Below are positions 17,761 through 21,139 of a DNA stretch of 64,000 bases, piece after piece. Every line of letters starts with the position of its first letter. Position 1 is the first letter of the stretch. Where the stretch lies: assembly GCF_001684955.1 (NCBI RefSeq), contig NZ_MAYF01000312.1, forward strand, positions 1-64,000, in the 5' to 3' direction. A model generated the notes under the pieces. That model made no database searches and was not told where the DNA came from. It saw only the letters and a list, made by a program, of their open reading frames with translations. Source of the DNA: Chryseobacterium contaminans. GTDB taxonomy: Bacteria; Bacteroidota; Bacteroidia; Flavobacteriales; Weeksellaceae. A program made the translations under genes and the position numbers.

Positions 17761-17798
17761 AAACTCCTGCATTAGAATTGACGCAGGAGTTTTTTATT
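17761..17798 (+). terminator. Terminator between convergent mscS and ligD
   Basis: A 10-bp stem (17761-17770 with 17783-17792) is followed by TTTTATTTAT on the plus strand. The minus-strand tail is weaker, so it mainly serves mscS. Confidence 0.8.
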
Positions 17799-19677
17799 TA
17801 TCCATGTTTTGCAATAATTCCAGTGCCTTCATCATATCAATTCCTTTACCCAAAACAGGTTTAAACAGATCTCCTTTTTCTTTAATTCTTTCAAGGGCAT
17901 TTTCAATATTGTAATCTGTAGGTAAAAGTCCCGGTTTTAATTCATCCCAATCCAAAGGCATAGAAACGGAGGCTCCTGGTTTTGGACGGAGGCTGTAGGC
18001 ACTTGCCAGTGTCTGTCCGGTTCTGTTCTGCAGATAATCAAGGTATATTTTACTGGAATCTCTTTTTTGAAGGCTTCTTTCCAATGTTGTAATTTCAGGA
18101 AGTTTTTCATGAACCTGTTTCATCAGAATATGGGCGAAGTCTTTCACCTGGTCAAAATCATATTTGCCACCCATCGGAATGTAAATATGAATCCCTGTAC
18201 TTCCGGAAGTTTTGCAATATCCTTTAATTTTGATAGCTTTTAAAACTTCATTAACCTGAAGGGCCGTTTCAATAACCTCATCAAAAGTATTTTTCTTTGA
18301 AGGATCAAGGTCCAAAACAAGATAATCGGGATGCTCAAGATCAGGAAGAGAGCTGTTCCAGGGATTAAGGTCAATACATCCGAGATTGTTCAGGTAAGCT
18401 AAAGTTGCCTTGTCATTACAGTAGATATAATCAATATATTTATCATTAGATTCAGAGTAAACCTGTGTCGTTTTTATCCAGTCAGGAATATGATCTCCGG
18501 CATCTTTCTGATAAAATCCCTGCTTTTCAATACCATTTGGAAAACGGTTCAGAGATAAAGGACGGTTTTTAAGGTATGGCAGGATATATTCTGCTACCGA
18601 CTGATAATAATCTATTACATCCCCTTTAGTAATTCCATCTTTTGGAAAATAGACTTTATCCTGATTGGTCAGTTTCACAACATGCCTGTTGAGCGTGATT
18701 TCCTGTTCTTTTTCCGAATTTTCTTTTTTAGAAGGTGCTTTAGCGTTCATTGTTTTGGATTTTTTAGGTTGAATAGTCAGATCTGTTGCGTCCTTTACTT
18801 CTTCGGGTTCTTTATCTTCACGAATGCCAACAAAAACAGGATGGCGGAAAATACCGTCTTTGGTAATTTCTGAGTATTTGATTTCGCAAACCAATTCCGG
18901 CTTTACCCAGGTTACGGGCATATTGGTTTTTGGAATGGTTTCAAATGGGGAAGATTTTACCATCAACTTCCTAAGCTTTTGATAAAGCTCTTTCAGTAAA
19001 TTATTATTGAAACCTGTTCCGGTATGGCCACAATATATCAATTCATTATTCACATATTTCCCCAGAATCAAAGCTCCGAAACTTTCCCGTGAACCTCTGG
19101 GTTCTGTAAATCCACAAATAATAGCTTCTTCCGTATTGGAAAATTTAATCTTAAGCCAGTCCGTGGTTCGGTAATTTTCTACATATTGACTATCTGCTCT
19201 TTTTGCAATCATTCCTTCCAGTTTCATCTTTTTCATTTGGTCAAAAAAAGCAATGCCTTTTTCAGGGATGTGATCGCAATATTTAATTGTATCTGTTTCA
19301 ATTAACGCTTCTTTTAAAAGCTCTTTCCGTTGAACAAGCGGAAGTTCTTCTGTAGAATGACCATTGAGCCAAAGAAGGTCAAAAACCTGATAGACTAAAG
19401 CGAGATTGGGATTATCTCCAATTTGTTGTAAAAGCTGAAAACTAGGTTTCCCCTGATCGTCATATGCTACGATTTCTCCATCAAGGATCATTTGATATTT
19501 TTGCCGAACAAAATCCTGAGCTACTGCATCGAATTTTGATAAAAATGAAATTCCGTTTCTGGAATAGAAGAGAGGTTCATCATGGCTGAGATCGGCAATA
19601 GCTCTGTAACCGTCCCATTTTATTTCAAAAAGCCAGTCTTTATCATCAAATGCTTTATCAAAAGGTTTGGCCAGCAT
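17794..19677 (-). CDS. ligD: DNA ligase D, ligase and polymerase domains (downstream frame of split ligD)
   Basis: This 627-residue frame holds the ATP-dependent ligase domain first (nucleotidyl-lysine motif EIKWDGYRA near residue 19-27, then the OB fold to about 300). The primase-like polymerase domain follows (about 335-627) with the metal-binding LDLDPS and the TSGSTGIHIYIP motif. Together these trim, fill and seal broken ends in Ku-dependent end joining. The frame stays open for over 100 bases upstream of this ATG, encoding a normal linker ending FIKPMLAKPF. It therefore belongs to the same protein as the phosphoesterase frame at 19749-20354, separated by one base in a run of nine A. Confidence 0.93.
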   Translation of the reverse strand: MLAKPFDKAFDDKDWLFEIKWDGYRAIADLSHDEPLFYSRNGISFLSKFDAVAQDFVRQKYQMILDGEIVAYDDQGKPSFQLLQQIGDNPNLALVYQVFDLLWLNGHSTEELPLVQRKELLKEALIETDTIKYCDHIPEKGIAFFDQMKKMKLEGMIAKRADSQYVENYRTTDWLKIKFSNTEEAIICGFTEPRGSRESFGALILGKYVNNELIYCGHTGTGFNNNLLKELYQKLRKLMVKSSPFETIPKTNMPVTWVKPELVCEIKYSEITKDGIFRHPVFVGIREDKEPEEVKDATDLTIQPKKSKTMNAKAPSKKENSEKEQEITLNRHVVKLTNQDKVYFPKDGITKGDVIDYYQSVAEYILPYLKNRPLSLNRFPNGIEKQGFYQKDAGDHIPDWIKTTQVYSESNDKYIDYIYCNDKATLAYLNNLGCIDLNPWNSSLPDLEHPDYLVLDLDPSKKNTFDEVIETALQVNEVLKAIKIKGYCKTSGSTGIHIYIPMGGKYDFDQVKDFAHILMKQVHEKLPEITTLERSLQKRDSSKIYLDYLQNRTGQTLASAYSLRPKPGASVSMPLDWDELKPGLLPTDYNIENALERIKEKGDLFKPVLGKGIDMMKALELLQNMDK

Positions 19678-19748
19678 AGGCTTAATGAAAGATTTAAGTT
19701 TTTTCTCATTCGTTAAAGCATTAAAGCTCCTGAATCTTTTTTCTGAAG

Positions 19749-20354
19749 TTATGACTTCTTTTTTCTGTTTGTTTTTAGGCTTTTTTTTTCCTCCAGAAAT
19801 TTTGTAACCAAAGATTTGGAGGATGTATTTTCTTCCGCATTATAAGGGCTTTCGGCAAATTCATCTTTATGTTTAATGAGCAGCCATGCATTGTCTTCCG
19901 AATTTTTCATTTTCACCAGTGCAAATTCACCTTTCAGTTTTTTACCGTGTAAGATAAATTTTATGGAACCGGCATGAAGTTCTTTCAACAATTCCTGTTC
20001 ATCAGAAATTTTGTTATTTTCTTCCAGAGGTTCATAAGTTCCGCTATCCCACACTTCTACTTGCCCCGCTCCGTAATTACCTTCAGGAATATTCCCTTCA
20101 AAATCTTTATAATCGTAAGGATGATCTTCTACCATCATAGCCAGGCGTTTGTCCTGAGGGTCCAATGAAGGGCCTTTCGGAACAGCCCAGCTTTTTAGTA
20201 CGCCTTCCATTTCTAATCGGAAATCATAGTGAAGACGCGTTGCCGCATGTCTTTGGACAACAAAAACCAGTTTATTTTTACTCCTTTTTGCTTTTCCTTT
20301 GGGTTCACTTGTTTCGTTGAACTTACGTTTCTGTTGATAATCTTTAAGAGCCAT
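19749..20354 (-). CDS. ligD: DNA ligase D, 3'-phosphoesterase domain (upstream frame of split ligD)
   Basis: A 201-residue frame with the LigD phosphoesterase domain: VQRHAATRLHYDFRLEMEG, WAVPKGPS and VEDHPYDYKDFEGNIPEGNYG, including the catalytic histidines. This domain trims 3' ends before ligation. Its ATG overlaps the Ku stop codon by one base (TAATG), so it is translationally coupled to ku. After the run of nine A at 19781-19789 the frame continues only 11 codons to a stop, while the ligase domain continues in the -1 frame. The whole gene would be 17794-20354, about 865 residues, in the order phosphoesterase-ligase-polymerase. Confidence 0.93.
   Translation of the reverse strand: MALKDYQQKRKFNETSEPKGKAKRSKNKLVFVVQRHAATRLHYDFRLEMEGVLKSWAVPKGPSLDPQDKRLAMMVEDHPYDYKDFEGNIPEGNYGAGQVEVWDSGTYEPLEENNKISDEQELLKELHAGSIKFILHGKKLKGEFALVKMKNSEDNAWLLIKHKDEFAESPYNAEENTSSKSLVTKFLEEKKSLKTNRKKKS
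19781..19789 (-). other. Run of nine A at the ligD frame junction
   Basis: On the minus strand the codons are GAA AAA AAA AGC in the phosphoesterase frame. A single extra A, or a -1 ribosomal slip on A-AAA-AAA, yields GAA AAA AAA AAG CCT and joins the ligase frame without a stop. Confidence 0.85.
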
Positions 20355-21139
20355 TACGATGCAGATTTGGATTTGGAATTATTCAGGCTGGCTTTTAACT
20401 GAGCCATAAGATCAATTACTTTACCTTCTTTAGCAGCCGGTGCTTTTCTGGTTTTAATATTCTTACCTTTTGCTTTCTGCTTGATAATTTTCAGCAGGTC
20501 ATCAGAATAGGTATCTTTATACATAGCGGGATCAAACTCCTGGGAAAGCTGTTCAATAAGATTTACAGCCATTTTCAGCTCAGCAGGTTTTGGAGCCTTA
20601 TGAGCAGGGATTTTTAAATCCGAATAATCTCTTATTTCCTGATCAAACCTAAGACGGTTTAAAATCAATATATCGTTATTGTAGGGCCGTATCATCCCAA
20701 TAGCCTCACTTTCACGAAGCACAAATGTACCGATGCCTACCATTCCTGTTTTTTCAAGAGCTTTTAATAGAAGCCTATAGGCATTTTCACCATTTTTTTG
20801 CGGTTCAAGATAGTAAGGGGTTTCAAAATAAACACTGTCTACTTCTTCTTCCTTTACAAACTGATCAATGGAAAGTATTTTTGTCTTTTCCGGGCTTGCT
20901 GCTTCATAATCTTCTTCATCAAGGACGATATATTTATCATCCATAAGATAGCCTTTAACAATGTTTTCCCACTTTACTTCTTTTCCTGTATTTTCATTAA
21001 CTCTCTTAAACCGAATGTTGGAAAAATCGGATTTATCGAGCATATCAAGGTCCAGTTTGCTGGTCTCCGTTGCTGAGTAAATTTTAACAGGGATATTTAC
21101 TAAACCGAAGCCAATGGCGCCATTCCAAATTGCTTTCAT
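20354..21139 (-). CDS. ku: Non-homologous end joining protein Ku
   Basis: A 261-residue protein that binds DNA double-strand ends as a homodimer and recruits LigD. The N-terminus MKAIWNGAIGFGLVNIPVKIYSAT is the bacterial Ku signature. The core beta-barrel extends to about 200, including YFETPYYLEP and the GIGTFVLRESE region. The C-terminal tail is Lys/Ser-rich and probably contacts LigD. It is the first gene of ku-ligD and is divergent from the Crp/Fnr-type regulator, sharing 143 intergenic bases with a palindromic site. Confidence 0.96.
   Translation of the reverse strand: MKAIWNGAIGFGLVNIPVKIYSATETSKLDLDMLDKSDFSNIRFKRVNENTGKEVKWENIVKGYLMDDKYIVLDEEDYEAASPEKTKILSIDQFVKEEEVDSVYFETPYYLEPQKNGENAYRLLLKALEKTGMVGIGTFVLRESEAIGMIRPYNNDILILNRLRFDQEIRDYSDLKIPAHKAPKPAELKMAVNLIEQLSQEFDPAMYKDTYSDDLLKIIKQKAKGKNIKTRKAPAAKEGKVIDLMAQLKASLNNSKSKSAS

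Follow-up and report, generated by a model that had tools for sequence, protein, structure and literature searches.

What does Chryseobacterium contaminans make from a ligD gene whose domains lie in two reading frames? The window analysed here is a 64,000-nucleotide stretch of one contig of this organism, and on its minus strand a 3'-phosphoesterase (PE) frame and a ligase-polymerase frame meet at a run of nine A's (Table 1). The first-pass annotation had described the run, a PE stop 11 codons after it and a ligase frame open through it, and all three points were confirmed: the stop is the 11th codon past the run, and the ligase-polymerase open frame, 681 codons long, extends upstream through the run. 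The PE frame runs on into the ligase frame if one A is added or if a -1 slip takes place on A-AAA-AAA. The resulting single protein would have the standard domain order, as had been proposed, but its length counted from the open reading frames is 191 + 35 + 627 = 853 aa instead of the suggested 865 or so.

Table 1. Features of the ligD locus (positions in the window)
Feature	Position	Strand	Evidence or remark
Ku gene	20354..21139	-	PF02735 5.3e-48; TIGR02772 1e-89
LigD 3'-phosphoesterase (PE) with short basic tail, zero-frame ORF, 201 aa	19749..20354	-	LigD_N 1e-45, residues 34-148 (Pfam)
Putative recoding site GAG GAA AAA AAA AGC	19779..19793	-	A9 = 19781-19789; A_AAA_AAA heptamer in phase
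Linker, -1 (ligase) frame, upstream of first ATG	19678..19782	-	no stop in 127/127 aligned loci
Zero-frame stop TAA	19749..19751	-	inside -1 codon ATA (19750-19752); conserved
Ligase + polymerase in the -1 frame (627 aa counted from the KPMLAK ATG)	17794..19677	-	PF01068, PF04679, PF21686; TIGR02776 DNA ligase D 1.1e-162

The locus carries the PE, ligase and primase-polymerase domains of LigD (the ligase-polymerase frame matched DNA_ligase_A_M, DNA_ligase_A_C and LigD_Prim-Pol of Pfam) together with the link to Ku. It shares these domains, their order and the adjoining Ku gene with three-domain bacterial LigD (NCBIfam TIGR02776/02777/02778), from which it differs in being spread over two frames. 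It gave the single LigD match in the host genome at E ≤ 1e-30 (a 365-contig draft of 4.7 Mb), and GGAAAAAAAAAG occurred once in the 4.7-Mb assembly, at ligD. Ku lies immediately upstream of PE on the same strand in all 80 named loci. In the window the Ku stop overlaps the PE start as TAATG (20352-20356), and a TAATG or TGATG junction was present in at least 60 of the 80; because of this overlap, Ku and PE are probably translationally coupled. When PE was matched to five solved PE sequences, the best aligned stretches ended at residue 184 or earlier. The slip site falls at about residue 190, and the PE product extends beyond all stretches aligned to solved PE structures.

A protein search of 173 genomes of the genus returned a match in 144, whereas 29 had no ligD match at the cut-off of E ≤ 1e-30. 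In most genomes with a match, the ligase open frame spanned about 650-700 codons, not about 850. The genus set comprised 136 main-type loci among the matches listed, from 134 genomes. Left out of the analysis were a partial match (G128), a match in two pieces (G303) and three duplicates (L238, L241, and L244). The sequence context of L025 was taken from a direct view of the site, and that of L212 from L091, assumed to be the same species. L228, a second, truncated ligD copy in genome G119, was kept outside the tree; it again has nine A's and the -1 frame. Among the 136 loci, 130 had the ligase frame at -1, five were fused and one was in the third frame. Comparison of tract length in relatives, which the first-pass annotation had advised, gave nine A's with the -1 break in 127 of the 136. 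The other three -1 loci had ten A's through an edge substitution that retained the -1 frame, three of the fused loci had A10, the other two had A9 with a differing downstream linker, and one locus of the 136 had A8. Because the identical -1 break stands at one place in 130 of 136 loci, both a sequencing or assembly error and a fresh mutation, which the first-pass annotation had offered as explanations, are excluded.

Third-base changes were counted on a tree of the ligase-polymerase proteins of these 136 loci, which were not chosen by the site. For the 473 conserved degenerate codons taken from PE and from the ligase-polymerase, the median was 28 changes, and only the codons GAG, GAA, AAA, and AAA of the site showed zero (136-tip tree). 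GAG preceded the run in 134 of 134 genus loci, compared with 16% of Glu codons in these genes, and AGC followed it in 127 of the 130 -1 loci. The codon AAG makes up 18% of Lys codons, and it interrupted the run in none of the 136 genus loci and none of 31 Epilithonimonas-type loci. A slippery sequence is conserved here beyond coding need. We regard the recoding site in ligD as real, old and selected.

The break also recurs outside the genus. The family set contained 208 ligD1-type loci among the matches listed (215 rows minus seven paralogues, which stay in the tree), of which 164 were at -1, 42 were fused and two, both isolated tips, were in the third frame; the -1 sign was thus found in 164 of 166 out-of-frame loci. 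The linker of every one of the 164 -1 loci had an A-run of nine or longer, as did that of 30 of the 42 fused loci. Fused and split states changed at least 18 times on the family tree, and the -1 loci fell by eye into about seven to eight groups in this FastTree phylogeny, whose support values were not weighed and in which gain and loss are inseparable. Since five of 136 genus loci and 34 of the 62 family loci outside the genus are fused, the break is not essential. A search of 296 genomes of the order gave a match in 54, 15 of them outside the family, where the open frame of the best match was 800-906 codons and two secondary hits had 764 and 686 codons. All seven paralogue loci (44-47% identity to the query) were fused, and two of them contained an in-frame A9, so linkers of this kind acquire long A-runs even where the frame is unbroken. 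Further paralogue hits were present in G033, with 727 open codons, and in G284, with an internal TAA. In addition, the ligD of ten genus loci (L218-L227) is of the Epilithonimonas type and shares about 61-64% identity with that of the window; it replaces or accompanies the usual ligD, which suggests gene exchange between genera.

Runs of this length are rare in other genes. For a relative, G011, we took 400 kb of the 5.3-Mb genome and compared the 331 kb of coding sequence in it with synonymous shuffles: sense A-runs of nine or more occurred twice against about 45 expected, about 22-fold rarer, and A8 runs 42 times against 65 expected, and KKK was spelled as nine A's in one of 72 cases. The window itself had one run of at least nine A's versus about 2.3 expected, which are small numbers, and its A/T runs of at least eight lay mostly outside ORFs (16 outside, three within). 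Judged by these counts, ligD retains a nine-A run that the genes of G011 avoid, although the avoidance may come partly from DNA instability. The sense A9 runs of G011 fall in just two of the 313 ORFs in the 400 kb (C1 ~1096991-1098889 and 1205737-1206921, within L304-L323), and these two ORFs are possible further recoding candidates.

How, then, would the ligase frame be reached? Transcriptional slippage by one added A is the likeliest mechanism: RNA polymerase would add one A while the RNA:DNA hybrid lies wholly inside the run, giving mixed mRNAs. The -1 loci keep an uninterrupted run of at least nine A's without exception (164 of 164), and runs of this length are selected against elsewhere in the coding sequence of G011. 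Nine A's is also the length reported, in the available portion of PMC1088944, for a large share of bacteria. Transcriptome data in the available portion of PMC5574713 indicate that single insertions prevail in A/T runs and that deletions are seldom, and therefore -1 states would persist and third-frame states would not; that study itself did not observe a restored reading frame in its data.

The alternative is a faithful mRNA on which ribosomes, by programmed -1 frameshifting at A_AAA_AAA, produce the full-length LigD. An X_XXY_YYZ heptamer stands in the zero frame, GA(A_AAA_AAA)AGC, and the nearly uniform -1 sign of the out-of-frame loci agrees with it; every nine-A run contains A_AAA_AAA, so that ribosomal slipping fits equally well on phase. 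A Shine-Dalgarno-like GAGG directly adjoins the run, and the last G of GAG (window 19791-19793) is invariant in the genus, even though Glu is more commonly written as GAA; it is missing from most of the other -1 lineages. The invariant GAG is left unexplained by slippage. However, GAGG lies two bases before the first AAA, closer than in dnaX, and this spacing is wrong for -1 stimulation. We rejected it as a Shine-Dalgarno stimulator because it adjoins the run and is absent in most other -1 lineages. A conserved RNA fold was not found either: the RNAalifold structure of 130 sequences was empty, and mean shuffle z values were -0.46 to -0.56 in four stretches (30 sampled loci, 40 shuffles each), the value for a fifth stretch, down5-50, being meaningless since some shuffles were without variance. 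In a small downstream hairpin, GAAGU-CAUA-ACUUC, each base pair can form in 83-115 of 126-127 loci; its common broken states, however, have no compensating partner, and it too was rejected as a conserved stimulator. The locus thus shows neither the downstream structure nor the suitably spaced Shine-Dalgarno sequence that is usual, if not obligatory, at such sites. The missing structure weighs little by itself, because a proven ribosomal frameshift without an established stimulator exists (PMC4066793, available portion).

The form of the run speaks for transcription. Ribosomal slipping needs about seven A's, yet every -1 locus keeps at least nine; AAG never breaks the run, though A_AAA_AAG would still let ribosomes slip; and the avoidance of A-runs steepens sharply from eight to nine. 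For these reasons, and because a conserved stimulator was not found, transcription is favored, and we regard purely ribosomal frameshifting as rather unlikely, although a -1 slip of the ribosome would yield the same protein and may contribute. The first-pass annotation had named programmed frameshifting among its possibilities, which holds for recoding in the broad sense; transcriptional slippage, which fits best, it had not considered, and the conservation of the PE stop had escaped it as well.

A second question is whether the short PE product matters or is simply what a broken gene leaves behind. The linker and stop positions were examined in 127 loci chosen by a pattern containing the site, with all tested columns outside that pattern. 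The zero-frame stop falls in one -1 codon column in 117 of the 127 loci and up to three columns earlier in the remaining ten. Whether this column encodes Ile, Val or Leu in the ligase frame, its codon nearly always supplies the stop: Ile is ATA in 100 of 102 cases (ATA makes up 13.6% of Ile codons), all 13 Val codons are GTA, and the six Leu codons are all TTA or CTA. The column has undergone 17 first-base and five third-base changes, the opposite of ordinary codons. The same is seen in the Epilithonimonas-type clade, whose tract sits a few codons further on than that of Chryseobacterium: in all 25 of its -1 loci the stop stands at codon 10 counted from the start of the run, with ATA for Ile (10/10), GTA for Val (4/4) and TTA, CTA or CTG for Leu (11/11). 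In the corresponding frame of 34 fused relatives, by comparison, the distance to a stop varies widely, between 0 and 62 codons. The PE ORF is longer in two further -1 loci, L256 (244 aa) and L229 (212 aa), and a near stop is therefore not universal among -1 lineages. Selection on the stop suggests that the short PE product is itself selected, and free PE would then have a job of its own.

These data bear directly on a neutral reading, in which slippage at an inherited tract rescues a frameshift while the break and free PE are unselected. Frameshifts at poly-A tracts are reportedly rescued in this way in insect endosymbionts, and both the repeated change between fused and split states and the long PE ORFs of L256 and L229 would suit it. 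It does not account for a site with zero synonymous change when A9 is avoided in the genes of G011, nor for a PE stop held by ATA, GTA, TTA and CTA while the amino acid changes, and this twice, in separate clades. We consider the neutral reading very unlikely.

Coding selection on the ligase frame is evident even before its first ATG. In all 127 loci the 34-36 codons that separate the run from this ATG lack any stop when read in the ligase frame. Past the overlap, pairwise differences in a sample of 60 of the 127 loci amount to 0.26/0.22/0.53 for the three codon positions, as in coding sequence, and a block L-x-x-EKKL-x-x-FI-x-P is conserved. The linker contained no ATG in any of the 127 loci, TTG in 21 and GTG in 10. 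Because the downstream frame is under coding selection ahead of its first ATG, a joined protein is indicated, and selection argues that full-length LigD is made. If instead the gene had been divided in two, with PE on its own and the ligase-polymerase beginning at the internal ATG, selection on the upstream linker would be needless. PE and ligase do exist as separate polypeptides elsewhere, and 126 of the 127 loci possess the internal ATG; however, it encodes the methionine of the conserved KPMLAK motif in the ligase domain and is TTG in the remaining locus, which makes a separate start there unlikely. Relatives with two separately started genes, which the first-pass annotation would have taken as evidence against a slip, did not emerge in view of this selected linker, and we give a split gene hardly any credence. 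Least credible of all is phase variation by replication slippage between A9 (off) and A10 (on), the on/off switch of the first-pass annotation: the three fused A10 loci and the single A8 locus would fit it, but tract length is nearly fixed between species, and seven changes, edge substitutions counted and all of them between species, suffice over 136 tips.

Poly-A recoding is known in other bacteria. The nearest precedent by analogy is tssM, as described in the available portion of PMC4256274. Citrobacter rodentium tssM1 and Yersinia pseudotuberculosis tssM3 have a poly-A tract within the coding gene and a stop just after it, like ligD, and occur as two length variants; one species makes mostly the short and the other mostly the full-length form, and both make two products. 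In the A11 tract of C. rodentium, slippage amounts to 20-25%, and both forms are needed. The differences are that tssM encodes a secretion protein with protein evidence in two species, whereas ligD encodes a DNA-repair enzyme, has the arrangement in 130 of 136 genus loci and is known here from sequence alone. Thermus thermophilus dnaX resembles ligD in its nine A's, its role in DNA metabolism and its two product lengths, but there the gene itself is in frame and slippage yields a shorter product (PMC1088944, available portion); in ligD, whose DNA is out of frame, slippage would make the product longer. The magnesium chelatase family shares -1 recoding at poly-A and fused homologues in other genomes; it is a different gene, and the available portion of PMC3711429 does not describe a selected upstream stop. 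Its frameshifting in E. coli rises with the run, from 10% at 7 A to 40% at 9 A and 63% at 11 A. Frameshifting or slippage in ligD and transcriptional slippage in Chryseobacterium were both not found in the open-access papers searched, most subscription papers lying outside this scope, and neither ligase nor LigD occurs in the first 300,000 characters of the recoding review PMC5009743. To the extent of this search, the ligD case was not found described.

Taking these results together, we consider it probable that a selected recoding site in ligD yields both PE and full-length LigD, with transcriptional slippage as the likeliest route; on the sequence evidence, one gene most likely makes both, and recoding as such has strong sequence support. 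Ordinary decoding would end at the stop 8-11 codons past A9 and give PE alone with its short basic tail, while a fraction of decoding events would pass into the -1 frame and give the full-length PE-ligase-polymerase. We infer the occurrence of slippage, its level and its placement at transcription from the patterns of conservation described above. The frame of the DNA would set which product is in excess, with A9 at -1 here and A10 or A11 in frame in some relatives.

More tentatively, the A-tract in the linker may serve across the family as a dial for end joining that works in either frame. PE and LigD would both be made by in-frame (A10/A11) as well as by out-of-frame (A9/A10) alleles, with opposite excess, and lineages would retune the PE/LigD ratio by one-base changes of the tract. 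The NHEJ operon would then have free PE as a second product under selection, with a level tied to RNA polymerase behavior; this combination as a whole is possible rather than expected. An annotation pipeline would probably call such a ligD broken. If the proposed recoding is true, a large bacterial genus relies on it for end joining, and a tract of nine bases sets how much end-trimming enzyme is made relative to the ligase-polymerase. The gene would then be a cellular example of poly-A recoding that is well conserved and in which the sequence speaks for selection of both products.
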